Positions 27,756 to 63,949 of a DNA stretch of 64,000 bases are shown here, piece after piece. Under the pieces are notes generated by a model that had not been told where the DNA came from, searched no databases, and saw nothing but the letters and a program-made list of their open reading frames with translations. Position numbers and translations under genes: made by a program. The stretch covers positions 3,047,526 through 3,111,525 of the forward strand of contig OY987227.1 of NCBI GenBank assembly GCA_963920705.1, in the 5' to 3' direction. Numbering within the stretch: the stretch's first letter is position 1; each line of letters begins with the position of its first letter. This DNA comes from Odiellus spinosus. Taxonomy: Eukaryota > Arthropoda > Arachnida > Opiliones > Phalangiidae.

Positions 27756-27811
27756 GATGTGTCTCGTTTAACTCTCTCGATAAGAACGGCGAACACGTCC
27801 ATACTGTCGGC

Positions 27812-28637
27812 TTATTTATAAGGGCGACCACATTCTCGAGGTCTAAAATGTTGAGTCGCATGAACTTTACCTCTTTCGAACTTGACGGGTACACCCATTT
27901 CACTCATAATGTTAATTTCAATAGATTGAAAGGAATTGCAGGAAACTGGGAGGTAATGAGGACGAGAAAATTCTCTGTCTACCGTATCCCCTTGGACGCT
28001 CGTTATTCGTAGAAGCGGAACATGAACATCACCTACAGCCCTGCTTTCAACGATATCAGAATATATGAAGAGTGAATGAAGACCCGCGTCTAAATCCACC
28101 GGATTTATTCTCGCGTGGACGAGGGTTGTAGTTTTTGTATTGCCTTTCATACTCCCAACATGACCGCCAACTCTCCCGGTATAGTTAACGAGTGATCCGG
28201 TTTTACGGAAACTTCAACACGTCTTAATCGCGCGATATAACTAAACGTGTATTTAACATTCGTCGTCGTATCCGACTCGAACATATCACCCTCGACTGGC
28301 GTCTCCTTTTTCAGTATAGTGATGTTCGAGATATCATCTTCGTCATAATTGAGTTGCTCCAATAGGTCTTCTTTATTTCCGTAGTAGCCCGCGGGGAGTT
28401 CTACCATTCTCGAATGACTCGTGCTATTTCTATTTTCCCCGTGGGAAGTTAACGATATCCAGCACGCCGATCTCATTTGCTCCATGTGTGGGGATAGATG
28501 AATTCCACCAAAGCCACTTCGTACGGACCTTATAATTTAACCGATTACGGTAAATGTGTTCGGAATTTACTGATTGTATTCCCTGGCAAGTAACTCGTAG
28601 AACTGTCTGACGGCAGGGTGATGTAGAACGTCATCAT
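27812..28637 (-). pseudogene. Penton-like minor capsid protein, broken (Mav1)
   Basis: Minor capsid (penton-like, single jelly-roll) protein that travels with the major capsid gene in Mavericks. The start at 28637 overlaps the integrase stop (ATGA). An N-terminal FYITLPSDSSTSYLPGN block is followed by two in-frame TAA codons near 28540, then EVALVEFIYPHTW. A frameshift near 28486 leads into ELPAGYYGN, and another at 28147-28150 leads into the C-terminal IYSDIVESRAVGDVHVPLL and PHYLPVS...FQSIEINIMSE blocks, which are the most characteristic part of the family. At least four breaks are present. The gene ends 56 bp before the basic core-like gene. Confidence 0.85.
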
Positions 28638-29648: not shown

Positions 29649-29865
29649 TGAATGAACAGTTGTTCGAAGTGCTATAATGCAAGAATACAAAATCGCTATT
29701 TTCTATAATTATAATTATAAATACAATTAAAACTGCAGTTAATAGCTTGGGAGAATTTATAAATGACTCGAATAGAGGCGCTAAAAGTCCTACAGAGACA
29801 ACATCGACATTATCACTCTCCATGTCAAAGCCTAATTCATAAATGAATCTAGAAAATATATTCAA
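29635..29865 (-). CDS. Small possible membrane protein (Mav1), unassigned
   Basis: A 76-codon frame just upstream of and slightly overlapping the integrase start. It holds one strongly hydrophobic stretch (LLTAVLIVFIIIII) after an acidic N-terminal half. I do not recognise a family. Its location between late genes suggests an element gene, but a chance frame in AT-rich DNA is possible. Confidence 0.35.
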   Translation of the reverse strand: MNIFSRFIYELGFDMESDNVDVVSVGLLAPLFESFINSPKLLTAVLIVFIIIIIENSDFVFLHYSTSNNCSFNGKT

Positions 29866-29887
29866 GTGTATTTTATTGGTAAATATA

Positions 29888-30470
29888 TTACAATGAAATC
29901 CAATTACAGAAACCGCGACCCTTCATTGGTTCGCTATCGTCAGAATAATACTCACCCGTTTCATCTTTATATTCCCTCTTCTCGGGTGGGATGAAGTCAC
30001 GTTTGCGGATTTTTATTAGAGATCTAGGAGCGTTCACTTTATACAACAATTCGTAGAACTCTTTCGAACCCGGGACGGCGATTTTCTTTCTTGGATTTTG
30101 ATACTGAATAAGCTAATAGATCGACGATGTTCGATCCTATGACTCTACGCTTATTGTAAATCAACTCCCCGGCGTCAGTACATTTAATTTTCAATGTTAA
30201 CTCTAACCATTTGTATAAATCTAACACTCCGTAGTCATATATGACGGCAAGCCGGAAACAATCTCCGCACTTCGATCTTTTATTAATAACCCTCGAGAGC
30301 ATGTGATTATAGCGATTAATGTTGTCCGTGTTGTTCAAATTGGGATCGTCAAGAATGCCTTTAATTTGATCGATCTTTTCCAATTCCAGAGTTTTATCCA
30401 CTTTGAAATCTTTCTCCGAATTAAGTCTTTGGTACGTCTCCTCGGAGATTAATAGCATTATTTTCGCCAT
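29888..30470 (-). pseudogene. Conserved Maverick protein of unknown role, frameshifted
   Basis: Starts MAKIMLLISEETYQRL and contains NRYNHMLSRVIN and GSNIVDLLAYSV blocks, then in another frame KEFYELLYKVNAPRSLIKI and an acidic/aromatic C-terminus ending at 29888. From memory this resembles an uncharacterised protein regularly found near capsid genes in invertebrate Mavericks. A single frameshift near 30080, next to an A/G-rich stretch, separates the two parts. No catalytic motif is visible. It lies only 2 bp from the stop of the next upstream gene, which supports a compact block. Confidence 0.65.
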
Positions 30471-30472
30471 CT

Positions 30473-30811
30473 TTAATTGATAACTTTAGATAGGATAGCC
30501 CCGGCTATCGAACTGATTATCGGAAGTAATATTGGGAGAAATCCGCCTTTTTGAATTAAAATTTGTCTTCGTTTAGCAGGAGTATTTTTCTTGGCCACGC
30601 GACGTATGGAATTGCAATGCTTCTTCAGCCGCTTCTTCTTGTCATCTGTGAGAGAAACGTTACTCTGAAGTATATTTATACAACATTCAGCGATGGTTTT
30701 TAATTCTTCTTTACTCGCCTATTTAATGGCGGCGTTTCGTTGACACGCGTTACACGAACTCAGATATTTAAAAAAGTCTAAGTGCTCGTGTACTCTCTTC
30801 GGCAGAGCCAT
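30473..30811 (-). pseudogene. Small basic conserved Maverick protein, one nonsense codon
   Basis: A 112-codon frame beginning MALPKRVHEHLDFFKYLS, with one TAG at codon 31 (30719-30721). Visible: CNACQRNAA, LQSNVSLTDDKKKRLKKH, a basic middle (RRVAKKNTPAKRRQ) and a C-terminus that turns hydrophobic/glycine-rich (KGGFLPILLPIISSIAGAIL). A protein with the same basic-then-GGF-hydrophobic layout accompanies Maverick capsid genes in many invertebrates; its role is unknown to me, possibly virion core. The stop lies 2 bp from the start of the following gene. Confidence 0.65.
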
Positions 30812-31128
30812 GTAGCTAATCGACAGCTTTCACGAGCGTACAATTGTTCTCGTCTCGGTGAAACGTACAAGTTCTACGCGTTCCACAAATTATAGTTATT
30901 AGTCTCGGGCAACCAAGGTCTTCGGCGTTAGTGACTTCAGTCTTCAAAAACCTCGATAACACGATAGATTTTTATATTGCCTTTTATCCTTAGACGACAA
31001 GTTCGTAAAAGGGAATGGCGCTTTAAAGATCCAGACCTCGTGTTCGCCCGTCTCCTTCACGAATAGTGTTACTTATTTCACAATCCATTGGCCTTGGAAT
31101 CTGAAGAAGTTTGCTTCGATGATTCCGG
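30812..31128. other. Gap between Mav1 ATPase and small basic gene
   Basis: About 317 bp on the minus-strand gene block. Only short open frames are present. One minus frame carries two Cys and a His (CGTRRTCTFHRDENNC) without a recognised domain. I cannot support a gene here. Confidence 0.4.
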
Positions 31129-31440
31129 TCATTTTGGTACAAAAATGGCGGTTTGTTCTCCTGGTAATATCCCGGTCTTTAATCTTCTATCTTCCGGAGT
31201 TGTAGCTTTGAGGTCTACGAATAGATATCCGCAACTGATAGCTGTAGCTTGTCTGAACGCGACTACGACGTATTTGCTGTTGACTGGAGAAACTTGTTTC
31301 GTCAAATGTAGAATCGCAGATTGGTCTCTCGGTGTTTTGAAGATTATCAGATAATGAGCGTTGAGATTCAAGGTTCGAATTTCCTTTCCTGGGTAGTAGA
31401 GGTTTTGCATTAATATTAGCAGAAATAGATGAAGCCTTTA
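31129..31440 (-). pseudogene. Packaging ATPase C-terminal fragment (Mav1)
   Basis: C-terminal part of the FtsK/HerA-type (A32-like) DNA-packaging ATPase of Mavericks. The hallmark run is MQNLYYPGKEIRTLNLNAHY, then IIFKTPRDQSAILHL, a GYLFVDLK block and a terminal EQTAIFVPK. The Walker A and B parts, which should lie upstream (above 31440), are absent: an in-frame TAA follows after about ten further codons, and beyond that nothing matches. This marks the right limit of recognisable Mav1 sequence. The natural C-terminal stop at 31129 is preserved. Confidence 0.82.
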
Positions 31441-45317: not shown

Positions 45318-45807
45318 GGTATACCACCTATATGACCTTTTTATTATTTCATTACTAATTATTTACTTTTAAAATTCTCAAGTGTAATATTTAATGTTTC
45401 TTCCCTTATTTAAAGTAATTTGATTTATTTTGACGCCAATTAATGATCTCTTCTCTCTCTCCTCTCTCTCTCGAGAGAGACAGTTTTACGCTTATTTTTG
45501 CGCTCCGCGAATTTATCATGTTTTCGCGATTTTTCGGTCGTTTTTTGTGATTTTTGTTTTAACGCAGCGCTAAAGGTATTTACGTTAATTTGCGGTATTT
45601 TCGTTTATTTTTGGCGTTTCGGAAGTTTAAAGTTTTTCGTGTTTGGCGTTAAGCCTAATTTTATTTGGGCTTTAGAGCCTTTTTTAAATTTTATTAAAAG
45701 TCGCGAGTTTTACTATATTTTATTTCCTCGTGCGCCGTTTTCCAAAGTCGCGTGTTTTACACGCGCCGTTTTATACTATTTTGGATTTTAACATCGCTTC
45801 CTACATC
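45318..45807. other. LINE 3' side and spacer before Mav2
   Basis: AT-rich sequence with a CT/GA dinucleotide stretch (CTCTCTCTCGAGAGAGA) near 45465. A 97-codon + frame at 45498-45791 has Phe-rich composition and no motif. Probably LINE 3' UTR followed by unknown sequence. The target duplication of Mav2 occupies 45802-45807. Confidence 0.45.
45802..45807. other. Left target-site duplication of Mav2
   Basis: TACATC immediately outside the AG terminus; its partner is GACATC at 63944-63949 (5 of 6 identical). Confidence 0.75.
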
Positions 45808-46941
45808 AGTAGGGTATAAAGGCGCGGACTGGCACAGCCTGCCGCTATACATTTAACATAGCGGCAGCCTGCCGCTATACTTTAACATAGCGGCAGCGGC
45901 AGTCCTCGAAATCAAGAACAGGCTGCCGCAGCAGAGGCAGTTCCTTATCTTCACTGTGTGATATTATAATTTTGTTTATTTAGATAAGTACGTCATCATC
46001 ACGTGACTTTCAGTTACACAATTAGGTTTTTAACCAATCACGTTGGCTTAGGTACCTTGAATTCATGAAAAAATTGCTCGTCGGAATACACATAAAGCTT
46101 TTGATAGTTAAATTTTTTTTTTTTTTGTATTTTGTGAGCCCGGGAGTCGAACCCGAACCCTCCTGAATGTAAGAATTACATGCTAACCACTAAACCATTT
46201 TCTCTTATCGATAATTTGTCTAAAATGCTGTAGCTTTAACACTTATCACTTATTTGAAACACCATCTACTTCATTATCGTACTAACGCTTAATTCAAAGA
46301 AAGGTTGAGACAGCATCTTATCTCTTTGCTTACACATAGAGACCATTATCTATACTTTTGGTTGGTACCACTAACAAAGGCAAGATTATACTTTTATATC
46401 TTTACTCCTATTATCAAGTGTGGAATGAATGTACGCTATCTCATGATTGGAAATTTAAATTTTAAAGCGCCAAATTATTAGCGTAACTAAAAGCTCTAAA
46501 GAGACCCCACTGTCATGCGTTCAAGTTCGTAGTTTTATCGTAATTTCCGTCATCCTCTTATATGTGGATAATAACAATATCCCGTTATCGTTGTTAGCGA
46601 ACCGTTTTATCAACATGCCCAATCAATCAGTTTAAAAGAGATTTTTAATAATGTTTGGTTTTATAACGTTTATTTCATATTTATTATCTCAGAAGTAATA
46701 TATTTATACACAATTTCAATCAAAATTTTAATTATTAATACAAGTTACATAATTTTATAATGTCCGTGAGCGAGAGTGGCTATCCCATCATCCAACACGT
46801 AGCGTTTATCGTCACATGGGTTTAAACATAGTTTGCTCTGCTGAACTGTCATCAACTCATGCTTTTTGCTCACGATTCTCTTCATTACCGCCACGGTAAC
46901 CCGTCTGTTGAGCAGACAGTCCCGATAATGTTCGTGGAGTA
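45808..46941. repeat. Left terminal inverted repeat of Mav2
   Basis: Reverse complement of 62764-63943 with few substitutions and small indels (for example a 12-bp stretch TCTGGCACAGCC present only on the right). Near the end it contains repeated GCCGCTATA / TATAGCGGC palindromic motifs (45840-45900). Toward its inner end it carries, on the minus strand, the last part of the polymerase gene (46745-46941). Confidence 0.93.
46134..46204 (-). tRNA. tRNA-like sequence in left Mav2 repeat
   Basis: On the minus strand it shows an A-box-like TGGTTTAGTGGTTAGCA and a perfect B box GGTTCGACTCC inside a T-arm (GGGTTCGACTCCC). The acceptor stem does not pair (GAGAAAA against GCTCACA), and the anticodon arm is irregular. 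More likely a tRNA pseudogene or a tRNA-derived SINE head than a working tRNA. It is followed by an A-rich tail. Confidence 0.45.
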
Positions 46942-47096
46942 AAGAGGATAAAAAGGGGAATCCAAATTAATTTAAAAAAAGGGGGAAGGAGGGGGTCGTC
47001 CCTTTGTTCGCCGAGGCGAACATCAAAAAGGGGCAGACGACCCCCTCCTTCCCCATTTTTTTAAATTAATTTGGATTCCCCTTTTTATCCTCTTTA
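46940..47096. repeat. Long near-perfect palindrome next to left Mav2 repeat
   Basis: Two arms of about 61 bp starting TAAAGAGGATAAAAAGGGGA are inverted with about one mismatch around a 35-bp centre. The centre holds a further perfect 8-bp pair (TGTTCGCC / GGCGAACA). It abuts the inner edge of the left terminal repeat exactly, suggesting a fold-back or end-healing event. Confidence 0.9.
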
Positions 47097-48140
47097 TAGA
47101 TAAGAGATATCTCTTATCAGAGATTTTTTCAAGTGTTTATCTACGATTAAGATAAGACAGTCTGCAAAGCGTCGAGAAATGAGCTTATCTGTGAATTTCT
47201 CCTCTCTTTTTATTCTAATATTTGATACTTACTTGGAAAAACCACCTCTTTGATTTAAGTTTAGTGAATTGGGGTTTTCCCCTTTATTTGCAAGATTCCC
47301 CTTTTTATCTTGTTTATAGATAAGAGATATCTCTTGTGTGTTTATCCTAATATAGCGATCCTTAGGTTCTAGTTTCATTGTGCAATGTCGACTCTGGTTT
47401 TATCACAAGTTCAATCATACCGTTTTCGCAATATTTACTCGGAAAAACCATCTCTTTGGTTTAAGTTTAGTTATATAGACACCATGAATTGGGTTTTTCC
47501 ATACTTACAATGACGATATAGGATTTTCCCCGTTATTGTAGTATTTGAAATTATCAACATCGATAAGATAAGACTGATGTTTTTCCCTAAACGATCTCCC
47601 CCCTCCCTCTTCAACCCTTTTTTCTAAATTTATTCGTGGGATTCCCCTTTTTATCTGGGTTATAGATAAGAGATAACTCTTATCAGAGGGTTTTCAAGTG
47701 TTTATCTACGATTGAGATGAGACAGGTTGCAAAGCGTCGAGAAATGAGCTTATCTGTGAATTTCTCCTCTCTTTATCCTAATATTTGTAATATTTACTTG
47801 GAAAAACCACCGCTTTGGTGAATTGGGGTTTTCCCTTTTTTATTGCGGGTTTCCCCCTTTTACCTTGTTTATAGATAACAGATATCTCTTATCAGAGGTT
47901 TTTCCATGTGTTTATCCTAAATATAGCGATCCTTAGGTTCTAGTTCCATTTTGTAATGTCGATTCGCAATATTTACTTGGAAAAACCACCTCTTTGGATT
48001 AAGTATAGTGATATAGACACCAGGAATTGGGGTTTTCCGTATTTACAATGACGAAATAGGATTTTCCCGTTATTGCTGTATTTGAAATTTTCAACATCGA
48101 TAAGATAAGGTTGATGTTTTTTCCCTATGCGATCTAGTAT
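47080..48140. repeat. Degenerate local repeats, Mav2 left interior
   Basis: Segments recur at about 47083, 47285, 47640 and 47850 (CCCCTTTTTATCYTGTTTAT, ATAGATAAGAGATATCTCTT) and at 47230, 47440, 47800 and 47975 (GGAAAAACCACCTCTTTG...TTGGGGTTTTCC). Units of roughly 200-560 bp have diverged by indels. GATAAGAGATATCTCTTATC is itself a palindrome. Confidence 0.75.
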
Positions 48141-48272
48141 TAAAATTCGGGTTGGTTTTAGCATTGACTCGTAAATTAATTTTATCGCATAGTCCTGCTT
48201 ATCTCGGTATATGTCTAGCGTCGGTCCATATTTAAATTCATTGTATGCCTGATCTTTGAAGAGTGAAGTCAT
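47973..48272 (-). CDS. Hypothetical protein, 99 codons
   Basis: Open frame diverging from the polymerase gene, with an N-terminal FKDQAYNEFKYGPTLDIYRD region and YLIDVENFKYSNNGKILF later. Its C-terminal third overlaps the degenerate local repeat (47973-48060), which argues for caution. Composition is protein-like (mixed charged and hydrophobic), unlike chance frames nearby. I do not recognise a family. It could be a remnant of a Maverick gene that once lay left of the polymerase. Confidence 0.35.
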   Translation of the reverse strand: MTSLFKDQAYNEFKYGPTLDIYRDKQDYAIKLIYESMLKPTRILILDRIGKKHQPYLIDVENFKYSNNGKILFRHCKYGKPQFLVSISLYLIQRGGFSK

Positions 48273-51200
48273 CTCGATTTTATTCTCCCGATCCTGGATA
48301 TTTTACGTGTCATATCCTTCCAATTCACCATCGCTTGGTAAGTAATTTCTTCGCATCTCACAATTTTTATTTTCTCCGGTTTGGGGTTTGATGGTAGATT
48401 TGTAAATTCCAGCTTCTCCGTCCTTTTAATTCACTTGTTTCAATGTGATAAATGTACCGCTACGTACACCACACAACGAGATTTGGTACAACATAGCCGT
48501 TCGTGCGGAGCATCATTTACTCGGAAAACTAATTTAAATAAACATTTGACTAAACAACACGTCAATGATAACAACCGCGATCACAACCTTGGCGTGCCCT
48601 CAGCAACGGGGACACCACCATCTAACACAGATAACTCGCCAAGTAACCCAAGAAAACGGCAGCGTTCGTCTTCGGACAACGAATCGCAGCCTCTGAAACG
48701 TGTTTCTACACACCAAACTTCAACCGAAGATGAAAATATAGCTAGCCCTCTCGATGAGTGAGAGGAAGTTGAGGCGATTGGTGATGTTGTGTTCGCTGCT
48801 AGGTTAACCCCAACATCAGTAGAAACTGCCCCCTTGGAATTTATCAGTAGACATAGACAGGTTATTTGCGAATATATTAAAAATCGCCTCCAATCAAAGA
48901 AAGGTATTAAGTGGTATATTATCATTCGCGCACGTTAAAACCCGCCCCCTAGCGAATGCAGGATCGATTTGCGAAGTTCTACCATATTTTCGAGGTTTTA
49001 CTAACGCTACTTTAACTCCTGACGTCATCCACGATCAGATTGACTCTAACATCGATAAAATCGAACAATCAATGTCTGAGTTTGAAGCTACAGGAAGTGG
49101 ATGGGTGCTAGATCGGCTTTTATTCGTGCAACTAGGCATTGTTATGTATACCCCACTCCTCGGAGGTTCATATATTGAATTGCCGAGCAAATTAGCAAAC
49201 AAGGAGGCTATCGTTAATGTCAAAAACTCTGACGATCGCTGCTTTATATACTCTATTTTAGCGAAATTGCATCCCGCGGAAACGAACCCCCAACGCGTCA
49301 CTAATTACCTCGCATTTGTCGACGAACTTAATCTTTGTTTATTAACATTTCCATATCAACATGAATCGAAAAAACTACGTACATTTGAAAATGTAAACGA
49401 AATTTCAGTGAATATTTTCGCGTATGAAGATGTCATTTTTCCTATTCACGTGAGTCAAAACCGGGTTGTCGAAGAACGAGAAATAGATCTTTTCCTAATA
49501 AGTCGAGGCGAAAAGAAGCATTTTTGTCTAATCAAGAATCTAAGTCGACTTTTGAGTGGTGATTTTTCTAATCATCATTGTACAATGTGGTACTGCCGCT
49601 ACTGTCTACATAGATTTTCCGGTGAAAACGCGAAACATAATCATAGTCAGCATGTTAAAGAGTGCAGTTTTCATGGACCTCAGCTTACTTCGATGCCAAT
49701 CGATGATTCCATTTGTAAGTTCAAGAAGTTCGCCTGGCGGCAGAGAGTCCCGTACGTAATATATGCGGACTTTGAGGCTATAATGCCAAAGGTTAATACA
49801 TGTATGCCGGATTCTTCGTTATCTTCAACAACTACATTGGCTTTACACAAATCATGTGGGTTTTCGTACGTCGTTGTTGGACCAGATGGTAAGCTAAAAT
49901 ATTTCTTAATCACCCCCCCCCCCTTGTCTTTACTTAAAATTAATTTTATAGGTACAAACGGGAAACCGGTCACATACAGAGGTGACGATGCTACTTCAGT
50001 ATTTCTCAAAAGCCTATTATATGAATCGGATATCATCTTGAAGAAAATCAAGGAAAACATACCAATGGAGTTAACGAAGTTAGAGACGAACTCGTGGTTA
50101 CAGGCTGACATCTGCTATCTCTGTGGTAGTGCTTTTACCTCGAGGGATTATAAAGTGCGGGATCATGACCATTACTCTGGAGCGCATCGGGGAGCTGCAC
50201 ACAACACCTGCAATCTCCAAATACACGCACCAAATTATGTTCCTGTATTTTTTCACAATTTGTCTGGATATGACTCCCATCTAATTATGCAGCGAATTGG
50301 ATTGATCAAGGATAAGGATATAGGGTATTCCATCCAATAGTGAAAAATTCGTATCATTTTCGTTAGGTCGGCTACGTTTCGTAGATTCACTTAGATTTCT
50401 ACCCGCCTCACTAGAAACCCTCGTAGAAAACTTAGCCAAAGAAGGATCGGATAAATTTCCGATTTTAAAATCTATCTACTCCCCTAACGAAATCGCGGTT
50501 CTCTTACGTAAAGGGCTGTATCCGTATGATTATATGGACACTGAAGAAAAATTTGAGGAGAAGAAACTACCTCCTAAAGAGGCGTTCTTCAATATTCTTA
50601 CTGACTCGCACATCAGTGATTCTGACTACGAACACGCTCAGAATGTCTGGAAAACCTTTAATATCCAAAATATGGGTAAGATTATTTTATTTGTGAAAAC
50701 CTTTCACATACTAATCACATTTATTACAGGCGAGTATCATGATCTGTACGTAACCACTGACACCCTTCAACTTGCTGATGTTTTCGAGTCATTCCGGGCA
50801 ATTTGTAAGAGTTATTATAAGTTGGACAGCGCTCACGCTTATACGGGACCCGGTTTCGCATGGGAAAGTGCTCTACATATGACAAAGGTAGAGTTGGATC
50901 TACTTTTAGATCCTGATATGCACCTGATGATAGAACGAGGAATTCGTGGTGGAGTATCTATTATTAGCCACCGTTTCGCAACCGCCAATAATAATCTTAT
51001 TCGCGAGACATACGACGCGGAGAAATCTAATAGTTTCATCACATATTTAGGTAAATTTCCGTAATTTGAGGGTTCCGTAAATTCAAAGTTTTAAGATCGA
51101 TTTCCCATCTCGTAGATTGTCACAACCTATATGGAACAGTCATGAGAGACCTCATGCCGATGAAAAACTTCAAATGGGATGATTCCATCTCTACCGAGGA

Positions 51201-51386
51201 AATTCTCCGTCATCCGGATGATGATAAAGTTGGCTTTATCGTTGAAGTAGACCTTATCTATCCCGCAGAACTTCACGCCAATCATAATGATCTACCACTA
51301 GCACCTGAAAAACGCATCATCAAGAGCGACGAATTTTCTGAATTCTCCAAGGAGCAGTTAAAGCATCTGAACATCCCGTTGAAAGA

Positions 51387-51391
51387 CTCTC
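51387..51391. other. Target duplication of LTR element, left
   Basis: CTCTC, repeated at 55672-55676. The match can be extended by neighbouring A and T, so the exact boundary is uncertain by 1-2 bp. Confidence 0.7.
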
Positions 51392-51847
51392 TTTTATTTT
51401 CCACCAAGCGAATTATTTAAGTAACTAATTCATTTAGACACCAATTTCGATTCCAAATATCTTTATTCATTTCTCTGACTATGTCGTCCTTCTTTCGAGT
51501 TCCTTTTAGGAGTGGCAGAAAACAAACGCTTTCTCCTTTACATTTTCACTCTAACATGCTAACCATTACAATCACCCGAACATCGGCTTCGGCTTCAAAA
51601 AAGCCCCCGTCTTGCTCTCCGATCTTCGCTATCACCGCGTTCTTTCGCTCCATGGGGGTTAAAGTTCGTAAATGCAGCTGAAGATACTATATGGCTATAT
51701 AGCCCTCCACACAAGCCCCAAGGCCAACATATATATAACATTATTCGTCCCATACATACATAAGTAAACAACCCTATAAGTATAATGACCAGAACTGTAC
51801 ACCCACAAGTCACATCTCCTTATAAGTATGAATCACCAGAAATGACA
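51392..51847 (-). repeat. 3' LTR (left copy)
   Basis: 456 bp, identical to 55216-55671 except one base (GAGTGGCAG here, GAGAGGCAG there, near 51513). The near identity indicates a recent insertion. Confidence 0.92.
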
Positions 51848-51857
51848 TTCCCCCGCC
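51848..51857 (-). promoter_or_regulatory. Polypurine tract
   Basis: Minus-strand GGCGGGGGAA immediately before the 3' LTR, in the place expected for plus-strand priming. One C interrupts it. Confidence 0.65.
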
Positions 51858-52382
51858 ATGAGCATTGCTCATAACAACACACTTAACCAATTTAATAACA
51901 ACATAAATTCATACTGCAGAATTTCATGACTCGACTCAAGTTAACATTGCTATTAGTAAACACTTCACAGTTAATCTCAACATTTAATCATTTATAACAA
52001 TACTAATCACTTAATAGTTTCATGCGTTTAGATCCGTTAATATCGGATTTACACATTAAATTTTATTATCTTTTCCACTCAACACATAGATTCTCGTTCT
52101 ATAATGAACATCTCTTCACGCGCAGCTAATTTGAACTACAAAAAACCCATCATTATGGGAAAAGTAGTTCAGGGAAAACCCACTACTTGGGCAAAAACCT
52201 TTTTCGTATATTACTCCGATTCATAACATTTTTACAGTCAAAGTCACCGAATCACTCTTTTTGTTCACAATTAGTAAATTCCACAATGGCTAATATATTT
52301 CAACATTTATTTCTTTTTTCTAACAGTTACTTTATACAATAATTAATATTTTAATTTCATATGTATATTTATCATAAATCCC

Positions 52383-53395
52383 TCATCATGATTAGTCTCT
52401 CCATCACGATTAATTTCTCGTCACGATAACCAATCTCTCATCACGATGATCAATCTCTCATCACGACGATCAACCTCTCATCACGACGATCAATCTCTCA
52501 TCACGACGATCAATCTCTCATCACGACGATCAATCTCTCATCACGACGATCAATCTCTCATCACGACGATCAATCTCTCATCACGACGAGCAATCTCTCA
52601 TCACGACGATCAATCTCTCGTCACGACGATCAATCTCTCGTCACGACGACCAATCTCTCATCATAACGACTAATCTCTCATCGCGACAATTATCTCTCAT
52701 CGTGACAATTATCTCTCATCGTGACAATTATCTCTCATCGTCACAATTATCTCTCATCGTGACAATTATCTCTCATCGTGACAATTATCTCTCATCGCGA
52801 CAATTATCTCTCATCGCGACAATTATCTCTCATCGTGACAATTATCTCTCATCGTGACAATTATCTCTCATCGTGACAATTATCTCTCATCGTGACAATT
52901 ATCTCTCATCGTGACAATTATCTCTCATCGTGACAATTATCTCTCATCGTGACAATTATCTCTCATCGTGACAATTATCTCTCATCGTGACAATTATCTC
53001 TCATCGTGACAATTATATCTCATCGTGACAATTATATCTCATCGTGACAATTATATCTCATCGTGACAATCATCTCTCATCGTGACAATCATCTCTCATC
53101 GTGACAATCATCTCTCATCGTGACCATTCTCTCATCATGACCATTCTCTCATCATGACCATTCTTTCATCATGACCATTCTCTCATCATGAACATTTTCT
53201 CTCATCATGAACATTTTCTCTCATCATGAACATTTTCTCTCATCATGAACATTCTCTCATCGTGATCAATTTCTCTCATCATGATCAATTTCTCTCATCA
53301 TGATCAATTTCTCTCATCATGATCAATTTCTCTCATCATGATCAATTTCTCTCATCATTATCATTTTCTCTCATCATGATCGTTTTCTCTTGTTT
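52383..53395. repeat. Evolving 17-22 bp tandem array in LTR element
   Basis: Units change gradually from CATCACGACGATCAATCTCT (20 bp) to CATCGTGACAATTATCTCT (19 bp), then CATCATGACCATTCTCT and CATGATCAATTTCTCTCAT forms. All keep CTCATC followed by RTGA or ACGA. A 75-codon frame at 52446-52673 is read-through of the array. Confidence 0.93.
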
Positions 53396-53396
53396 C

Positions 53397-53860
53397 CTTA
53401 GTAACGCGATAGTTCCTCTAGTAACGCGATAGTTCCTCTAGTAACGCGATAGTTCCTCTAGTAACGCGATAGTTCCTCTAGTAACGCGATAGTTCCTCTA
53501 GTAACGCGATAGTTCCTCTAGTAACGCGATAGTTCCTCTAGTAACGCGATAGTTCCTCTAGTAACGCGATAGTTCCTCTAGTAACGCGATAGTTCCTCTA
53601 GTAACGCGATAGTTCCTCTAGTAACGCGATAGTTCCTCTAGTAACGCGATAGTTCCTCTAGTAACGCGATAGTTCCTCTAGTAACGCGATAGTTCCTCTA
53701 GTAACGCGATAGTTCCTCTAGTAACGCGATAGTTCCTCTAGTAACGCGATAGTTCCTCTAGTAACGCGATAGTTCCTCTAGTAACGCGATAGTTCCTCTA
53801 GTAACGCGATAGTTCCTCTAACAACGCGATAGTTCCTCTAACAACGCGATAGTTCCTCTA
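53397..53860. repeat. 20-bp tandem array in LTR element
   Basis: About 23 units of GTAACGCGATAGTTCCTCTA, nearly identical; the last two carry ACAACGCG instead. Confidence 0.97.
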
Positions 53861-55197
53861 ACTTCAACTTCGTACGTACTTTCAACTTCGTATTCTGATA
53901 ATGTTGTTTTAAGCAACTAGTATTTTTGGTAATTTTGTTTTATATTTAGAGTAATTTTTGTTTCATCTCTATTTATTTGCTTCTCTTATTGTTACTTTCC
54001 TTTTGTTAATTGTTTCTCTTAATATATTGTTATGTTTAGTTTCGTATCCAGAGCTCTGGCCAATTCATTTCGCTTTTTGCATTCTATTCGTTAGTTGTTC
54101 GATCGATCGATTTCTTCGCTCGCTCTCTTACAATATCCCGTATCCAACGGACGCTAAACGCTCCCTTCCCATTGCCGTAACGGGCGATACTTCATTCTCC
54201 CTTTACCCGTTTTCATCCCCTTTCGTCTCCTAATTTCAAGGGCGCTAGAAAGGACCATTAGCGCTGAGCATTGGACATTGGGACGCGGACCCCTCTTTGG
54301 TCGCTAACCAATGTCTTCCCCCCTTGGGAGGAAATGGGGGAAGAACAATTTAAGTACCTTTCAATTCATTTTCAAGCAAAAGAGTCGCCACCATCTTTTA
54401 CAAGCACGAAATTGTTAAGGAACTCGTTAGGCTTAGCAACCAAGTATTTAATACATTCTTTATGAGTTTCAACTCCTAAGTATTAATTGTTTATTAGTCA
54501 TTACAATTAATCTAATGTATTGTAGAATAGAAATACTATCTTGGTCTACTTTACATTTATTTTTTCAACTCCTAAGTATTAATTGATTAGTTTCATTACA
54601 ATTAATCTAATATAGGTGTAGAATAGAAATACTATCCTGGTCTACTTTACACCTATTTCGTAGTACCTTAACAATTCCAATTACGTACATTCTACTTGTA
54701 CTGCCCTTCCATCCCAATTTCGTACTTATAATTATAAGCCTTCTACGGCCCGATTCCAATGACTATACTCCACTTACTCTACCCCAGCTAGGTACCGTCA
54801 ATTAGGTACCGTAATATGAATACCGTGTACCTATAGGCGTAGCTAACAGGATTAACTAAATATCCCAGCAATTTTAACTTTCGACAACTTATTGTGATAT
54901 GACATTATTTAAAATCAAAAGGAAAACATCAAACCCATTATAGCCATCCAACACGAACGGAGACTATATTCATTCAATTTCGTTAACTTTAGCCGCTTGC
55001 CTCTCTGTCCGGGCGGCGTCCAATCTCGACCTTTCTTAGGCGTCTGTTCTCTTCCTCTTTCGTCAATCGCCGCCATACTGAAAAAGGCGTCTTTTTTCCG
55101 AAAACGTTATCTGGATTTCAACTTACAATATTTTGATTTCTTCACTCTAATTCCACATTCTTAATCCATCCAAAGGCTCCTGGCTGATACGTTCAAC

Positions 55198-55215
55198 TCC
55201 CGGGTTTCGGCACCA
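55198..55215 (-). promoter_or_regulatory. Primer binding site for tRNA-Phe
   Basis: Minus-strand TGGTGCCGAAACCCGGGA is complementary to the 3' end of animal tRNA-Phe (...CCCGGGTTTCGGCACCA), 18 of 18 from memory, and starts at the first base after the LTR. Confidence 0.82.
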
Positions 55216-55671
55216 TTTTATTTTCCACCAAGCGAATTATTTAAGTAACTAATTCATTTAGACACCAATTTCGATTCCAAATATCTTTATTCATTTCTCT
55301 GACTATGTCGTCCTTCTTTCGAGTTCCTTTTAGGAGAGGCAGAAAACAAACGCTTTCTCCTTTACATTTTCACTCTAACATGCTAACCATTACAATCACC
55401 CGAACATCGGCTTCGGCTTCAAAAAAGCCCCCGTCTTGCTCTCCGATCTTCGCTATCACCGCGTTCTTTCGCTCCATGGGGGTTAAAGTTCGTAAATGCA
55501 GCTGAAGATACTATATGGCTATATAGCCCTCCACACAAGCCCCAAGGCCAACATATATATAACATTATTCGTCCCATACATACATAAGTAAACAACCCTA
55601 TAAGTATAATGACCAGAACTGTACACCCACAAGTCACATCTCCTTATAAGTATGAATCACCAGAAATGACA
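55216..55671 (-). repeat. 5' LTR (right copy)
   Basis: 456-bp partner of 51392-51847. On the minus strand it starts TGTCATTTCTGG and ends GGAAAATAAAA directly before the primer binding site. Confidence 0.92.
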
Positions 55672-55699
55672 CTCTCTACCCAAACTTGTACCGGATCTT

Positions 55700-55707
55700 A
55701 ACCCGAA
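55700..55707. other. Target duplication of hAT element, left
   Basis: AACCCGAA, identical to 61863-61870. Confidence 0.9.
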
Positions 55708-56572
55708 CAGTAGCGCCGCCAGCAGTAGGCACGTGCCTACGTTTAAAAATTTAGAGCCTAATTAGGGGGCCTCCAAAATTTGAAATTAGTGCCTATGGGG
55801 GCCTCGGAATTTTGAAACAGGTGCCTAAAGGGCCTTTAAATTTTTAGTGCTTAAGTGGGCTTTTTTAAATAAATTTATATTTCTTGTAAATAATCATCTG
55901 TAAAAGGGTGCTTTGACTGTAGAGACAGCTACAGAAGTTAAAAAGACTGAAGTGTAAAGATCGCTGCCACCTTCTTACTTCCCTCCTTATAGTGTCAAGT
56001 GACAAAAACATGAATATTAGTCTCACCATAGGGGGCGTTTAACGGCATCTCTTCATTCCTTAATAGGACTAAAATATTTACTGATCCACTCTAAATTTTA
56101 AGCAAGCACAAAGAAAGGCTCCCTATACCTTAAAGTAAAAAAAAGGTCTGGAGATAACGAATAAGATAGCTTTGTACGTGCTGCCTATTTAAGGTGGGAT
56201 ATAATAAAAAGGTTTGCCACCTGGTAAAATGTTTTCAAGAGGAAAAACAGCATAATATTGTGCTCATAGCCATGGGATTCCTTTTAATTTTTGATAATTC
56301 TAACCTTTGTGCACACTATTGTAGTAAGGAATTTGTGGCAAGCACTGGTTTTGGCACTCTATAGGGGGTGATTTGGGTTTGTTGACTTTTTCCAAGAAGG
56401 CGGAATGGCACCCGGAAAAGTCTATATGCTTTCCAGTGCTATTATACCGCTGAGATCTGCTTGTGAAAGATAGTTGTTTAACTTCGCCCATGGTGAAATC
56501 TCTGGGTGGATTTTATATTATTTGGAGTATTTATTTTTATGAAAAGTACTTGTGATTCTGAAAATTCTTTTT

Positions 56573-56670
56573 ACCTCCCCGACTGAACTTTAGTTCAGGG
56601 GGAGGTTTTACACTGGTCGTCTCTCTCTGTCTGTCTGTGTGTGTGTGTGCGTGTGCGTGTGCGTGTGCGT

Positions 56671-56706
<36 letters not shown>

Positions 56707-57590
56707 CCCTTCCTGTGTAACCGGATATCACGTGACCTAGCTCGTGGAGCAAAAATCTTGGGTAACAAGACGTAATCATGCCGTCATATCGTTCAATTCC
56801 GTTCAACGGGAATTCCTATAATCAGGCTGCCACATTAATGAGCTTCAAGTGTCGTGCAATATTATGCAACCGGACGTCTCCCATTGCATATTATCGCCTT
56901 CCACCATCAGCATCATAGTCGAACCTCGATGCTGGACAGTTGAAGGCGATTATAGCCAATGGGACGTCTCCCACTGTCATAATCACCTCCGACCATCCTC
57001 ACGCGCCAAGGTCCAACCTCCAGTTTCCGATCTCAGCGGGCCATACTAGCGAGGCGTCCCTCACTAATATGGTCCACATCAACCTTCCACTCTCCAAACA
57101 TCGCCCCCCAAGGGTAAATTGGCCGACAGTGGCACCCAGGGTTACGAGAAACGTCTGAGCATTTATCAGGTGAGAACTTCACAAGATTTTATCACAATCG
57201 GTTACTATATAATGCTAGTCGAACCCCTTATATAACCCTTTTTGGAAGTGTAGTATCATTTGGCGTTATGGCGTGATATCTTTTAGTAAATTTAAACGTA
57301 ATAATTATTTAAGGTATAATTAAAAATATTCAAATTGTTTCACTTAATCTAATTAAAAATGTAGCTGAAAATTAAATTTGAAATTGGAAATAGTTTAGAA
57401 GATATTTAAGAAATTGTCTAAGAATTTTGAGAAATTTGACTGTTTAATACCAGCTAGAGTTGGCAGGACGCGCTAAGCTATTTTCCATACATCATTTATT
57501 CAAAAAAGCAAAGGTATCACTGGCCGTATATGCTTAGGCTTGCTGCAAACTCGGGGTGGATTGAAGAATCTTAATAACAGTTCTACGCCA
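56573..57590 (-). repeat. Family X repeat, copy e
   Basis: Begins with the same hairpin as copy c (ACCTCCCCGACTGAACTTTA), then a GT/GC dinucleotide tract, GATATCACGTGACCTAGCTCG, the cluster AACCTCGATGCTGGACAGTT, and the AT-rich part ending TTGAAGAATCT. About 180 bp longer than copy c through extra internal sequence near 56960-57130. Confidence 0.75.
56624..56706. repeat. GT/GTGTGC microsatellite
   Basis: TCTGTCTGTCTGTG followed by GTGTGCGTGTGC and GTGTGT repeats. A minus frame with His-Ala runs here is spurious. Confidence 0.95.
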
Positions 57591-59367
57591 ATTTCTATAA
57601 ACTTGTTTTTTATCTATTTTAATTGATTGATTTAATTTTTTAGCTTAGCCTCAGTTATTAAAATGTGTAGGTGTTTTTTTTTATTTTGTTTATCGCATAT
57701 ATAAAAGCGTGAAATACTATTTCGGCCGTCAGAGAAAAAGCTGGGATCGAAGAGCTGGTTACCTTTTCGCTCGCCGTACCAATTCACTAGTGTGATGGTA
57801 ATTCGACAGCGGCTCTTAGCTGCTTCGACTGGCGTTTCTCTCCGTGGAGTGATACCTCCTTTACCTCGGTGTCGAGGAGAGCTAATACACGTGTGTTTGG
57901 GCTTCGTACTTGTACATAACCTTAAGGCCTGCGTAAAAGCCTCATATAATGTAAGGTCTAATGGGTGATTTGCACTTGACTTTTGGAGCGAATGTACCCG
58001 TATATCTAACTTAAACTTCTCCATTACCTACTTTGATTTCCGTGACTGGAATGTGCTTTAAACCCAATCTTTAATAATTCGCCATTGAATAACAAACCAA
58101 CTATTACCACGTAGGATAGGAGACATGATAATTGAGGTCTACATGTTGAATAACCTGCCACAAACTTGTTAATGCCTACTGTCGTTTATTTTCGGTGACG
58201 TTTTAGCTAGTGTGTAATCACGTAAAATAACGTTTGTTTCACAACTTGTGTTGTACACTAAAGCCATGTATTGGTTCAATTTGATATAACATTTTGCCTT
58301 TTCACGTTACTTGGTCTACAAATACTCTACAACCGTCAAAATTCTGATATGGTTTTAAAAGAAGAACCTTGACCTTGTGTATTTAATCTCATATCGAGAT
58401 TAAATGTTTTTCGCATCTAATTTTAATTGGTTTATCAATATGTTATTTGTATAGATATTTTTTTAAGATTTTATATTTTTTAGATTAAAATAAATTTATT
58501 ATTCAGGAAGATTTTGTAGAATCTAGTTCTCAGGATTACCGGTGTTGAAAATTTATTTTGCTAATGTTATCTTGATGTCTGTGTTTTCTGCCCGCTATTT
58601 GGTAGTGGTAAGATTAATATTTTTCATTTTAATTAATTGACTTATTTGGCGTTTATTGATAATTTGCTTTACTTAAATTGTTCGTGTAAGGGCTATTTTA
58701 CATATTACCAAAGATTGCTAATTTCAGTTGTCTTAATTCTGATTTTTTTGTTTTAATACTGAATTATGGACTGGATTATTTATCTTGAAATCTATGTGGT
58801 TATATCTTATTTATTTTCCTTTTTTTCTCTAGTTAGGTTTGGTTTTAAGTAGAGAATTATTTAGGGTTTTGTTGGTATACTGAAGAAATGCATATAGGTT
58901 CAATGTGATATAATATTTTGCCTATTGGCGTTACTTGGTCTGCAAATACTCTAGAGCCTTCAAAATTATTATATGGTTTTAAAAGAAGAACATTGACCTT
59001 GCTTATTTTACTCGATACGCATTTATATTAAAATTAATTCATTATTCAGCAAATTTTTTTTCCGACTCTGGTTCTCAAAATTTTATTTTGAATTAAGTTT
59101 GATTCTTTTGCATTCAAATTTATCTTGATAAGAAGTATATTTTTGATCTGAATTATTGGTTTAATATTTTTAGTGTTTAATTGAGATATTATTTCTTTTT
59201 GCTTTCAATCTTCGTCTTCCACAAATGCCATAAATTTTAATATTTTAGGTAAGGTTAGGTTAGTTAACATCACGTGGTTGTCGGGGAGGTATTATTTTGG
59301 TTTCCCAACTTGTTTTCCATATCATGATTTATCATCTTGTAGAGCAGAGGGAACAAGTCACTACTAC
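57591..59367. other. AT-rich interior of hAT element
   Basis: A 130-codon minus frame (57632-58024) includes RHRGKGGITPRRETPVEAAK and VNWYGERKGNQLFDPSFFSD, protein-like but without a domain I can name. Segments near 58270-58385 and 58905-59005 are diverged copies of each other (TTACTTGGTCTRCAAATACT, TATGGTTTTAAAAGAAGAAC). A short piece at 59250-59310 matches 40580-40650. Confidence 0.45.
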
Positions 59368-61041
59368 GGTTACATTGGGCTCTGAACGTCGACGTAAGGG
59401 AACGTGGACGCTCATTTTTTCCATGTAAACGGACGAACGTCGACGTTCGAGGAGATACGTCGACTTAACGAAAACTACCTCGAACCGTCGATTTAAGGAC
59501 TTACGTCGACGTTCGAGGTGGCATGTAACCCGTGAAAGTCGTTGTTCGCCGCATAGTAGAATTTTTCTTACTATATAAATGCTACTATTTTTTTGATATT
59601 GCATTTTATTTTCTGAACTATTTTATACTCAAGCGTAATAACGATTTTTTTAATATATTTAAATTATTGAACTAAGTAGCCAGCTACTGACAAATTCTTT
59701 AATAGCAGAGGTTTGATTTTCAAAATTTAAAAGAAATTAACTGATATTATTTAAGATAAGCGTATATAATTTAGTACATACAATTAATATTATACTATAT
59801 AAAAAATACTATATTATATTAATATTATTTAAAAAAAATCAGATGCAACCAGTTATACCGAAATAATTTCCAAAAGATTTATTGATTTTATCTAATTTTA
59901 AAGTCTACAAATTACCAATCTATTTTTTGATCTACTACATTTTTTAGTTCTTGTTGTCGGAAACTTCATGTAGCATTTTTATTTACAGGGTAAAGTATGC
60001 TTAGGGGAGGAGGGCGATCTTTAAAATTAAAATCGGGATCCTTAAAAATAAATAAGATCCCGATTTAATTTTAAAGATCCCGATTTAATTTTAAAGATCC
60101 CGATTTAATTTTAAAGATCCCGATTTAATTTTAAAGATCCCGATTTAATTTTAAAGATCCCGATTTAATTTTAAAGATCCCGATTTAATTTTAAAGATCC
60201 CGATTTAATTTTAAAGATCCCGATTTAATTTTAAAGATCCCGATTTAATTTTAAAGATCCCGATTTAATTTTAAAGATCCCGATTTAATTTTAAAGATCC
60301 CGATTTAATTTTAAAGATCCCGATTTAATTTTAAAGATCCCGATTTAATTTTAAAGATCCCGATTTAATTTTAAAGATCCCGATTTAATTTTAAAGATCC
60401 CGATTTAATTTTAAAGATCCCGATTTAATTTTAAAGATCCCGATTTAATTTTAAAGATCCCGATTTAATTTTAAAGATCCCGATTTAATTTTAAAGATCC
60501 CGATTTAATTTTAAAGATCCCGATTTAATTTTAAAGATCCCGATTTAATTTTAAAGATCCCGATTTAATTTTAAAGATCCCGATTTAATTTTAAAGATCC
60601 CGATTTAATTTTAAAGATCCCGATTTAATTTTAAAGATCCCGATTTAATTTTAAAGATCCCGATTTAATTTTAAAGATCCCGATTTAATTTTAAAGATCC
60701 CGATTTAATTTTAAAGATCCCGATTTAATTTTAAAGATCCCGATTTAATTTTAAAGATCCCGATTTAATTTTAAAGATCCCGATTTAATTTTAAAGATCC
60801 AGATTTAATTTTAAAGATCCCCATTCAATTTTAAAGATCCCCATTCAATTTTAAAGACCCTGAATTAATTTTATAGATCGCGCTCCACCCTTTTCTAACA
60901 TTCCATACCAGAAAAACCCCTTTAGGAGGAAATATTCTACAAGGGTACATTCAAACGACGACAATGTAACCGCTCCCTTTTTCCGAATGTCGACGTTCAC
61001 GAGCGTCGACGAAACGTCGACGTTCAGAGCCCAATGTAACC
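59368..61041. mobile_element. 1.67-kb element with 28-bp inverted ends
   Basis: Both ends read inward GGTTACATTGGGCTCTGAAC and continue CGTCGACGT, 28 of 28 identical. Sub-terminal regions are dense in CGTCGACG/ACGTCGACGTTC motifs. The centre is a 20-bp tandem array. A TA lies close to both ends, but the exact target duplication is unclear. No transposase. Confidence 0.75.
60045..60872. repeat. 20-bp tandem array
   Basis: About 41 units of GATCCCGATTTAATTTTAAA, almost perfect, degenerating in the last four. An inverted related piece (TTTAAAATTAAAATCGGGAT) precedes it at about 60020-60040. Confidence 0.97.
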
Positions 61042-61108
61042 TAGCAACTATCTCCTTACAACCTTTTTTATAACATAACATTAGCTTGAAAATGACAAGG
61101 AAAAACCA

Positions 61109-61815
61109 ATGAGGGGGGCCTCTAAATCGGTCTACCCCCATTTCGCCCAATTTATTTTCGCCCAATTTCATTTCGCCCAATTCCCATTTCGCCCAGTTTC
61201 TTTTCGCACAATTTCATTTCGCCCAATTCCCATTTCGCCCAATTTCTTTTCGCCCAAATCCCATTTGGCCCAATTTCTTTTCGCCCAATTTCTTTTCGCC
61301 CAATTCCCGTTGGCCCAATTCCCATTTGGCCCCATTCCCATTTGGCCCCATTCCCATTTGGCCTAATGTCTTCTCGCCCAATCTCGTTTCGCCCAATTGT
61401 GATTTGGACCAATCTCATTTTGCCCAAGTCACATTTTTCCACTTTTTTTCCCCCCAACCTAACCTAACCTAACCTAAATTAAATAAAAGTCACTTTTTTG
61501 GCCTACTAAGACTTTAAATTTTAAAAGATTTAAGCTTTAATCGTTTTAGGCGAAAAGGGAAGAGAAATTTTTGGGTTGGGCGAAATGGGAATAGATAATT
61601 CTAGGCTAACTGATAAAACGATTGGGCAAATTGGGATTGGGCGAATTGAGAAAAGGAATTTTTAGTTTGGGCAAAATGGGAAGAGATAATTTAGGGCCAA
61701 ATGATAAAGCGATTGGGCAAAGTAGGATTGGGCGAAATGGGAATAGATAATTTTGGGCAAAAAATGCCTTGGGCGAAATGGGAATAGATCATTTTGGGCG
61801 AAATGGGTACATACC
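61109..61815. repeat. Mirrored array of 14-18 bp CGCCCAATT units
   Basis: 61136-61440 has degenerate units TTTCGCCCAATTYC and TTTGGCCCAATTCCCA on the plus strand. 61555-61810 has the reverse orientation (TTGGGCGAAATGGGAATAGA). Between them lies CCTAACCTAACCTAACCTAA at 61456-61475. Open frames of 85-109 codons across it are repeat read-through. Confidence 0.88.
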
Positions 61816-62763
61816 TCTAAATCACGGTGCCTACTTAGAGTAAAATCCTGGCGGCGCTACTGAACCCGAAAACAAAATACGTAGTTCATTATAGGAACTT
61901 AAAATATTATGTGGAAGAAGGTCTTGTGGTAGGAAAGCTTCATCGTGTTGTATCGTTCGAGCAGGGAGCTTTACTCGCAGACTACATAAACTTCAATACG
62001 GAAAAGCGTAAATTAGCAACCAATGATTTTGAGAAAGATTTTTTTAAATTAATGAATAATGCAGTTTTCGGTGAGTGCGCGTACACACATAAGTAAATAC
62101 ACACGCAGCAATTTGAATGTTTATCTTATCTTTCTACGTAGGTAAAACAATGGAAAATCTACGGAATCGGATTGAATTCCATTTAGCACAAACACCTAGG
62201 AAAGTGATTAAGAAGGTAAATTCACCGGCATTCGAAAAATTGTCGATTTTTCAAAACGATCTGGTTGGGATTCACATGAAGAAAAAGAAAATCGTTCTGA
62301 ACCGTCCTATATATAGGGGTTTTACCATACTTGATCTGTCAAAGTTATTGATGTACAACTTTCATTATGGTGTGTTATAAGAGCGCAGTATGGAGATAAG
62401 GCAAAACTTCTGTTTACAGATACTGGTAATTATTTTATTTGTTCGATATGACCCGATATAGGCTGTATATTTAATATATTTTCATTTCTCTTTGCAGACA
62501 GTCTTACAAACTTCATTGAAACAGATGACCTCTACGCCGACTTTGCCAAACAAGCCGAGCATTACGACTTCTCTGGCTACCCTATCGTACATCCACTCTT
62601 CAGCGACGAGAACAAAAAAGTTCTCGGAAAATTCAAAGACGAACTAAACGGTATTCCTATTAAGGAATTCTGTGGGTTACGCCCTAAGATGTACTCTATC
62701 CTCTCGACGGTGGGTAAAAAAAGATCGCGAAGGGGGTGTGCAAGCGTGTGGTGAAGAAAACCA

Positions 62764-63943
62764 TACTCCACGAACATTATCGGGACTGTCTGCTCAACAG
62801 ACGGGTTACCGTGGCGGTAATGAAGAGAATCGTGAGCAAAAAAGCATGAGTTGACGACAGTTCAGCAGAGCAAACTATGTTTAAACCCATGTGACGATAA
62901 ACGCTACGTGTTGGATGATGGGATAGCCACTCTCGCTCACGGACATTATAAAATTATGTAACTTGAATTAATAATTAAAATTTTGATTGAAATTGTGTAT
63001 AAATATATTACTTCTGAGATAATAAATATGAAATAAACGTTATAAAACCAAACATTATTGAAAATCTCTTTTAAACTGATTGATTGGGCATGTTGACTTT
63101 AAGTATATCATTGATAAAACGGTTCGCTAACAACGATAACGGGATATTGTTATTATCCACATATAAGAGGATGACGGAAATTACGATAAAACTACGAACT
63201 TGAACGCATGACAGTGGGGTCTCTTTAGAGCTTTTAGTTACGCTAATAATTTGGCGATTAAAAATTTAAATTTCCAATCATGAGATAGCGTACATTCATT
63301 CCACACTTGATAATAGGAGTAAAGATATAAAAGTATAATCTTGCCTTTGTTAGTGGTACCAACCAAAAGTATAGATAATGGTGAAAGATATATTCTACCT
63401 CGTCTCTATGTGTAAGCAAAGAGATAAGATGCTGTCTCAACCTTTCTTTGAATTAAGCGTTAGTACGATAATGAAGTAGATGGTGTTTCAAATAAGTGAT
63501 AAGTGTTAAAGCTACAGCATTTTAGACAAATTATCGATAAGAGAAAATGGTTTAGTGGTTAGCATGTAATTCTTACATTCAGGAGGGTTCGGGTTCGACT
63601 CCCGGGCTCACAAAATACAAAAAAAAAATTTAACTATCAAAAGCTTTATGTGTATTCCGACGAGCAATTTTTTCATGAATTCAAGGTACCTAAGCCAACG
63701 TGATTGGTTAAAAACCTAATTGTGTAACTGAAAGTCACGTGATGATGACGTACTTATCTAAATAAACAAAATTATAATATCACACAGTGAAGATAAGGAA
63801 CTGCCTCTGCCGCGGCAGCCTGTTCTTGATTTCGAGGACTGCCGCTGCCGCTATGTTAAAGTATAGCGGCAGGCTGTGCCAGACTGCCGCTATGTTAAAT
63901 GTATAGCGGCAGGCTGTGCCAGTCCGCCCCTTTATACCCTACT
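62764..63943. repeat. Right terminal inverted repeat of Mav2
   Basis: Its inner end (62764) lies within the polymerase coding region, so the final 65 or so codons of the gene are inside the repeat. Further out come an AT-rich section, a tRNA-like segment (63541-63611) and GC-rich AGCGGCAGGC palindromes near the tip. Confidence 0.93.
63541..63611 (+). tRNA. tRNA-like sequence in right Mav2 repeat
   Basis: Identical inverted partner of 46134-46204. Promoter-type A and B boxes are intact and the acceptor stem is not. Followed by ACAAAATACAAAAAAAAAAT, which resembles a retroposed tail. Confidence 0.45.
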
Positions 63944-63949
63944 GACATC
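63944..63949. other. Right target-site duplication of Mav2
   Basis: GACATC directly after the terminal ...CCCTACT. It pairs with TACATC at 45802-45807. The remaining bases to 64000 show no feature. Confidence 0.75.

Follow-up and report, generated by a model that had tools for sequence, protein, structure and literature searches.

Polymerase-only Maverick variants recur as near-perfect palindromes in the Odiellus spinosus genome

How does a virus-like transposon that retains only its DNA polymerase move, and in what form? The question is raised by an element at positions 45808-63943 of a 64,000-nucleotide stretch of Odiellus spinosus DNA (GenBank assembly GCA_963920705.1, contig OY987227.1, positions 3,047,526 to 3,111,525; the whole stretch is hereafter the window). 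The original prediction, made from the sequence alone, took it for a Maverick (Polinton) derivative mobilized in trans, with a 7–8-kb unit of one polymerase gene between terminal repeats as the mobile form. AG tips and a 6-bp target duplication are hallmarks of Polintons, and the ends of the window element are as predicted, with inverted repeats of 1.13 and 1.18 kb, AG tips (AGTAGGGTATAAAGG) and a target duplication identical at 5/6 positions (TACATC/GACATC). Published accounts give Polintons as elements of 15–20 kb with a type B DNA polymerase (PolB), an integrase, an ATPase and a protease (PMC4028283), or as typically 15–25 kb long (PMC6431247). In the window element polB, its frame now broken, is indeed the only recognizable gene, and none of seven nonpolymerase proteins encoded by a full Maverick elsewhere in this genome has a match there. 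Subtracting the coordinates of two later insertions leaves ~7.7 kb, the figure originally given. We conclude that this element is probably a decayed copy that has lost much of one arm and belongs to a polymerase-only Maverick satellite; the satellite would move as a palindrome of ~12 kb, with integration supplied in trans.

Recurrence of the palindromic form

The assembly search that had been proposed as a check, here with a 15-base tip of the terminal repeat and across 443 Mb in 286 contigs, returned 20 exact matches (none for the reversed control) at 10 loci, on C2, C3 (twice), C8, C9, C11, C13, C14, C149 and C169. All 10 carry polB, none of the seven other full-Maverick proteins was found there, and none of the loci bounds a full Maverick, which places the window element in a mobile polymerase-only family rather than among decayed full Mavericks. 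For a second tip, AGTAGTAGGTGAAAGG, the search gave 28 exact matches (control, 0), which form 13 pairs and 2 orphans. Of the 13 paired elements, two were read over their whole length and hold polB alone, 10 more have polB, and one, on C137, has none among the matches listed. Across the 12 elements read (the 10 first-tip elements and these two), there was no match to the integrase, the ATPase or five further proteins encoded by the full Maverick on C3, and at all 23 loci we saw, by eye, no integrase match within 15 kb among the integrase matches listed. All polB and integrase counts should be read as minimum values, as the best 85 of 379 and the best 140 of 715 candidates, respectively, were scored.

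The 23 loci reduce to 21 sites: C169 has the flanks of C8, and the window site recurs in inverted orientation, ~350 kb along its contig, around L009 (C3:3458262-3465557), where both later insertions are missing. Perfect 6-bp duplications that differ from site to site were found at 19/21 sites, comprising all 13 two-tip members of the second family and, in the first, C13, C8, C14, C9, C11 and C149. The other two sites are that of the window element (5/6) and C2, where the flanks are inverted.

The form that recurs is a near-perfect palindrome of ~12 kb, inserted repeatedly at different sites with 6-bp duplications. The window's first polB piece has at least 134 matches in the genome, 85 of which entered the pair count while 49 were left out as presumed further fragments of the same genes. 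Among these rows, at least 21 pairs are inverted with no more than 15 kb between their members (15 of the pairs divergent, 6 convergent), and 43 matches stand alone. The divergent pairs occupy 15 loci at 14 sites, and all 14 sites show a perfect 6-bp duplication. Each such element runs from a tip through ~1 kb to a polB with its 3′ end outward, then through another ~1 kb to a hairpin center, from which the same order follows as an inverted repeat. Lengths are mostly 11.5–12.9 kb (exceptions are C14:18918568-18932206, irregular at 13.6 kb, and C72 at 14.0 kb), and 10 uninterrupted members measure 11,543–11,728 bp, below the 15–20 kb of Polintons. Compared from tip to center, six elements prove to be inverted repeats over their whole length: the arms are 99.3–99.5% identical in C13, 99.3–99.7% in C169, 99.0–99.1% in C8 and 99.0–100% in C14; those of C5:9443277 and C11:14332904 are 99.7% and 99.6% identical. 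In five further palindromes the outer 1.5 kb of the arms were compared and are 99.0–100% identical, while C1, C4, C5:4983112 and C72 were judged palindromes from paired polB, tips and a center match.

Fold-back reads could in principle have produced such palindromes as assembly artifacts, and the element at C14:18918568-18932206, which has an additional tip and is 100% palindromic including ~0.4 kb of flank, would suit this explanation, as would the inverted flanks at C2:28647396. However, direct 6-bp duplications stand at the outer ends of all 14 palindromic sites, the arms differ by 0.3–1% in C13, C169, C8, C5 and C11, and C8 and C169 share one palindrome, located in copies of a single site. 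We therefore give an artifact hardly any credence.

The first prediction is supported as regards a mobile polymerase-only family and not supported as regards its mobile form. A mobile 7–8-kb unit, with one polB between ~1-kb repeats, would fit the existence of five further short copies of 5.2–7.8 kb that have both tips, three of which are flanked by their own perfect duplications. Yet several insertions of one and the same 7–8-kb form were not found; each short copy (the window element with L009, and L010, L011, L018 and L019) carries a different deletion on a two-armed template. Mapped on a palindrome arm, L018 covers positions 1–6300 of one arm and retains the final 137 bp of the other, L019 covers positions 1–5108 and retains 107 bp of the other, and the window element and L009 combine one arm with ~0.8–1.2 kb of the other; L010 and L011 are more rearranged. 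No two independent short copies are alike, the matching window element and L009 lying in copies of one site, and a mobile short unit is in our judgment very improbable. Because the breaks all differ, and because the window element retains the end of a second polB and a two-sided center, the direction of change appears to run from palindrome to short form. The window element thus reads as a decayed palindrome copy in which much of one arm was deleted, and such a loss would explain why its terminal repeat contains a polB end: the inner ~190 bp of the repeat are the polB 3′ end, so that the left repeat carries, on its minus strand, the end of a second polB.

Polymerase lineages and the shared center

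In the two second-tip families polB is still an open frame (1212 and 1231 aa) and shows the motifs DANNLYG, NNSVFG and TDTDS, with DNA_pol_B_2 matches at E values of 1.5e-9 and 2.2e-9; on these sequence features we assign the enzyme to the protein-primed type of PolB. The half-elements L022, L024 and L025 contain no further frame of at least 120 aa within the element. The flank of C5 has a 580-aa frame that extends 71 bp into the tip of the C5 element. Between the 1212- and 1231-aa polymerases, the ratio of nonsynonymous to synonymous substitution rates (dN/dS) is 0.13, 0.15 and 0.05 in three pieces. The polB of the two intact families therefore appears to be under purifying selection, which suggests that it works for its element.

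In a polB tree of 52 sequences and 269 columns, the window clade (support 0.94) joins the polymerases of the loci C8 and C282 (join 1.00), which we call integrase-bearing from a distance of ~7 kb between polB and integrase matches. The clade of the 1212- and 1231-aa families falls outside this group, so that the palindromic architecture sits on two polymerase lineages. At C8:4281985, in the integrase-bearing clade nearest to the window's, the terminal repeat was not found in the two flanking stretches searched. Protein relatives occur in a spider, a planthopper, a mollusc and a cnidarian, which together with a TTAGG-like repeat in the window would point to an arthropod. A scan of IMG/VR with one polB piece found no relative, a scan with a polB alignment gave one weak match of 55 residues among the matches listed, and searching PDB sequences by means of the polymerase core yielded a single match at chance level. 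Among bacterial and archaeal species genomes, nine contigs (L079-L087; 3.6–6.6 kb, filed under metagenome-assembled genomes) encode relatives of this polymerase, in some cases a long polB with hardly anything beside it; they have no long inverted arms (the longest is 304 bp), and we considered them misplaced eukaryotic DNA and set them aside.

The center of the palindrome is a distinct module. A 241-bp center query has 100 matches at 20 loci, all of which have the first or second tip, and it matches no full Maverick. Nineteen of the 20 loci also have a polB match, the remaining one, C137, having none among the matches listed. Of five centers folded, four share a long stem with 4-nt and 5-nt bulges on one strand and a tip of 7–8 bp, and that of C5 is less regular. 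Fold energies reach z = −12.8 to −16.7 against shuffled sequences; a low energy is expected because the stretch is a palindrome, and the common bulges are the notable part. The half center of the 1231-aa family is 94–95% identical to that of C169 while their polymerases are ~44% identical, which suggests that the center module has been exchanged between lineages.

Candidate helpers and a proposed fold-back model

A full-Maverick integrase could plausibly mobilize these elements in trans, judging from the other elements of this genome. One full Maverick, at C3:19064989-19079578, has repeats of ~0.4 kb, the tip AGTAGTATG and the duplication AACATA, and encodes a PC4-like protein, PolB, a 374-aa integrase with a chromodomain and an ATPase; three Maverick proteins had no match in PHROGs. 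Integrase matches number at least 140, many of them in open 374-aa frames. Another tip, AGTAGTATGAAAATGAGC, bounds elements of ~14.6 kb on C2, C5 and C11 (twice). Each contains a single integrase match whose frame is open over 374–377 aa, and these four elements are absent from the polB matches listed. Tips of the second family resemble full-Maverick tips over AGTAGTA.G, and those of the first over AGTAG.

Integration might instead depend on an activity of the host or of the element itself, for instance an Endonuclease VII-like portion of PolB. An Endonuclease VII match is present in all four PolB examined and exceeds the curated cut-off in two, but the same match occurs in the PolB of the integrase-bearing full Maverick, and the full Maverick on C3 has AG tips and a 6-bp duplication just like those of the polymerase-only elements. 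We regard such an alternative as improbable, and prefer a Maverick integrase acting in trans.

Other Maverick-related loci differ in what they keep. Within the window, positions 21500-31440 hold a decayed full Maverick with polB remains on the plus strand and an integrase with a chromodomain (28634-29565), other genes and ATPase remains on the minus strand; most pieces are 72–93% identical to the proteins of C3:19064989, and the N-terminal part of polB is 42% identical. A 12.85-kb element at C2:11935003-11947855 (L046/L047) has its integrase, ATPase and other genes doubled in 4.7-kb arms that are 99.7% identical, while of polB ~176 codons from the 3′ part are all that was found, which makes it the converse of the polymerase-only form. 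Elements at C11:9368752-9381604 and C232:84681-97533 have the same tips, length and integrase pair; the C11 copy has the duplication TATAAG, and the C2 and C232 copies carry each other's flanks crosswise (CGCGGT/CTTGTG). The six convergent polB pairs, 5–9 kb apart (C47:123951/131882, C17:4921599/4929508, C12:8007859/8015643, C5:5283418/5289506, C1:10314299/10319887 and C183:70191/80281), are perhaps doubled halves of full Mavericks.

How might a palindrome with one kind of gene be copied? We propose that PolB would start at the tips and displace a full-length single strand which, being self-complementary, would fold at the center into a hairpin duplex of 6 kb with one open end. Restart at the open end and copying round the hairpin would yield a linear duplex of 12 kb, the only form that would offer two tips to an integrase; a full-Maverick integrase may then act in trans on tips that share the AGTAG core. 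Such fold-back would account together for the two tips, the imperfect center and the near-identical arms, and a polymerase alone would be enough. We tentatively suggest, at somewhat less than even odds, a self-replicating hairpin replicon of animal chromosomes with PolB as its sole gene, a parasite of the Maverick integrase (and perhaps of capsids) with an exchangeable center module. Such a replicon would be a eukaryotic counterpart of satellite phages.

Several observations weigh against this interpretation. Six elements of the 1212-aa family have three variable arm sites, and at two of these the arms of one element differ, with an allele also found in other elements; this weakens the strict version of fold-back, and in a milder version mismatched arms would persist or recombine. 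The first-tip family has only AGTAG in common with Maverick tips, and in the window's own family 9/14 polB rows contain stops among the matches listed. The polymerase-only element L010 (C2:28647396-28655169) has flanks that are mutually inverted over at least 619 bp at 98.6–99.1% identity. Finally, the genome holds other palindromes, integrase-integrase and convergent-polB, so that palindrome formation is not unique to the polymerase-only class.

These other palindromes raise the alternative that full Mavericks copy back and that the products integrate without a lineage of their own, as by-products resembling defective interfering genomes. The integrase-integrase element on C2, with its polB fragment and its C232 and C11 counterparts, and the six convergent polB pairs would fit such a process, and snapback genomes of adeno-associated virus (AAV) have been reported (PMC8235507). 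In contrast, the center module was found only in polymerase-only elements, and their polB orientation relative to the tips is opposite to that in the full Maverick read here. There are also two families with several near-identical copies at different sites and with polB under apparent purifying selection. By-products therefore seem an unlikely explanation, and the polymerase-only satellite with a palindromic mobile form remains our preferred one.

We class the element as a Maverick variant rather than a Maverick proper because the integrase and the rest of the gene set were looked for and not found. It resembles Polintons in its PolB (Endonuclease VII-like, DNA_pol_B_2, and with a C2H2 finger in the window copy), in its AG..CT tips and in a 6-bp duplication like that of C3. 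It differs in being palindromic, in the outward 3′ end of polB and in that integrase, ATPase and the other Maverick proteins were not found in the 12 elements read. AAV is a parvovirus, and its snapback products are replicated by the host polymerase and Rep, whereas here a chromosomal multicopy element encodes its own PolB. Self-complementarity and a hairpin at the fold, seen here in the integrated palindrome and its folded center, make AAV snapback genomes (PMC8235507) the nearest structural parallel, along with the rolling-hairpin intermediates of parvoviruses. Bidnaviruses are described as having a polintovirus-derived PolB in a small genome and, unlike the elements here, capsid and helicase genes and inverted terminal repeats without hairpins (PMC4061559); the description consulted mentions no palindromy. 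Tlr elements reportedly show the opposite loss, keeping integrase and ATPase without PolB, and so share with our elements the separability of PolB and integrase among Maverick relatives (PMC4028283). Our search of the open literature, which left most subscription journals and Repbase outside its scope, found no polymerase-only or palindromic Maverick described.

Of the genes of a virus-like transposon, the element would have retained just the one for replication, and this by becoming a palindrome, a form that would let a replicon persist with a polymerase as its sole gene. If so, it would expose the minimal needs of a self-synthesizing element. A natural satellite and a candidate helper would occur together in one animal genome, and with tips, center and expected fold-back products defined, the question of how Mavericks replicate becomes testable.

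Layout of the window element and neighboring features

The left target-site duplication (TACATC, 45802-45807) and its right partner (GACATC, 63944-63949) enclose terminal repeats of 1134 bp (45808-46941, plus strand) and 1180 bp (62764-63943, minus strand), which differ in pairwise alignment by 7 substitutions and 5 indels (10, 4, 21, 18 and 1 bp, counted by hand). The left repeat, with the tip AGTAGGGTATAAAGG, maps to positions 1–1179 of the C13 palindrome arm and would be the remnant of the deleted left arm; the 3′ end of the second polB copy within it spans ~63 codons on the minus strand (46748-46938, limits set by eye). Next comes the putative center of the ancestral palindrome (46940-47096, inverted pair I7), an imperfect hairpin with 4-nt and 5-nt bulges and a 7-bp tip that is 96% identical to the C169 center and folds at z = −16.1. 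It is followed by a noncoding center module 5′ of polB (47041-48135) with an internal duplication whose halves are ~79% identical.

The 5′ part of polB (48342-51391, plus strand), with its frame broken in places and short GT-AG introns suggested by eye, contains a C2H2 finger (48342-48758), a weak match to Endonuclease VII that stays under the curated cut-off (within 48823-50337) and pol motif A, read by eye as DCHNLYG. The 3′ part (61863-62960, plus strand), also broken in places, contains the region of pol motifs B and C and the conserved C-terminus, and its end is overlapped by the right terminal repeat. Between the two parts lie the later insertions. One is a long terminal repeat (LTR) element with minisatellite arrays (51392-55671, minus strand), flanked by CTCTC and with LTRs 99.6% identical, which is missing from L009, the second copy of the window site. 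The other is a 6.2-kb element (55708-61862) with CAGTAGCGCCGCCAG ends and the 8-bp duplication AACCCGAA, which may be hAT-like.

Minisatellite arrays inside the two insertions lie at 52377-53860, 60054-60879 and 61137-61754, with units of 19–20 bp, 15 bp and longer. Both terminal repeats contain a stretch that looks tRNA-like by eye (46138-46210 and its right-hand copy), and ARAGORN calls no tRNA in the window. A TTAGG-like repeat was also noticed by eye in the window. Positions 8433-18111 of the window form a 9.7-kb tandem array of a short unit rich in F, S, N, Q, I and R that is open in all three forward frames, one of them over 3218 aa.

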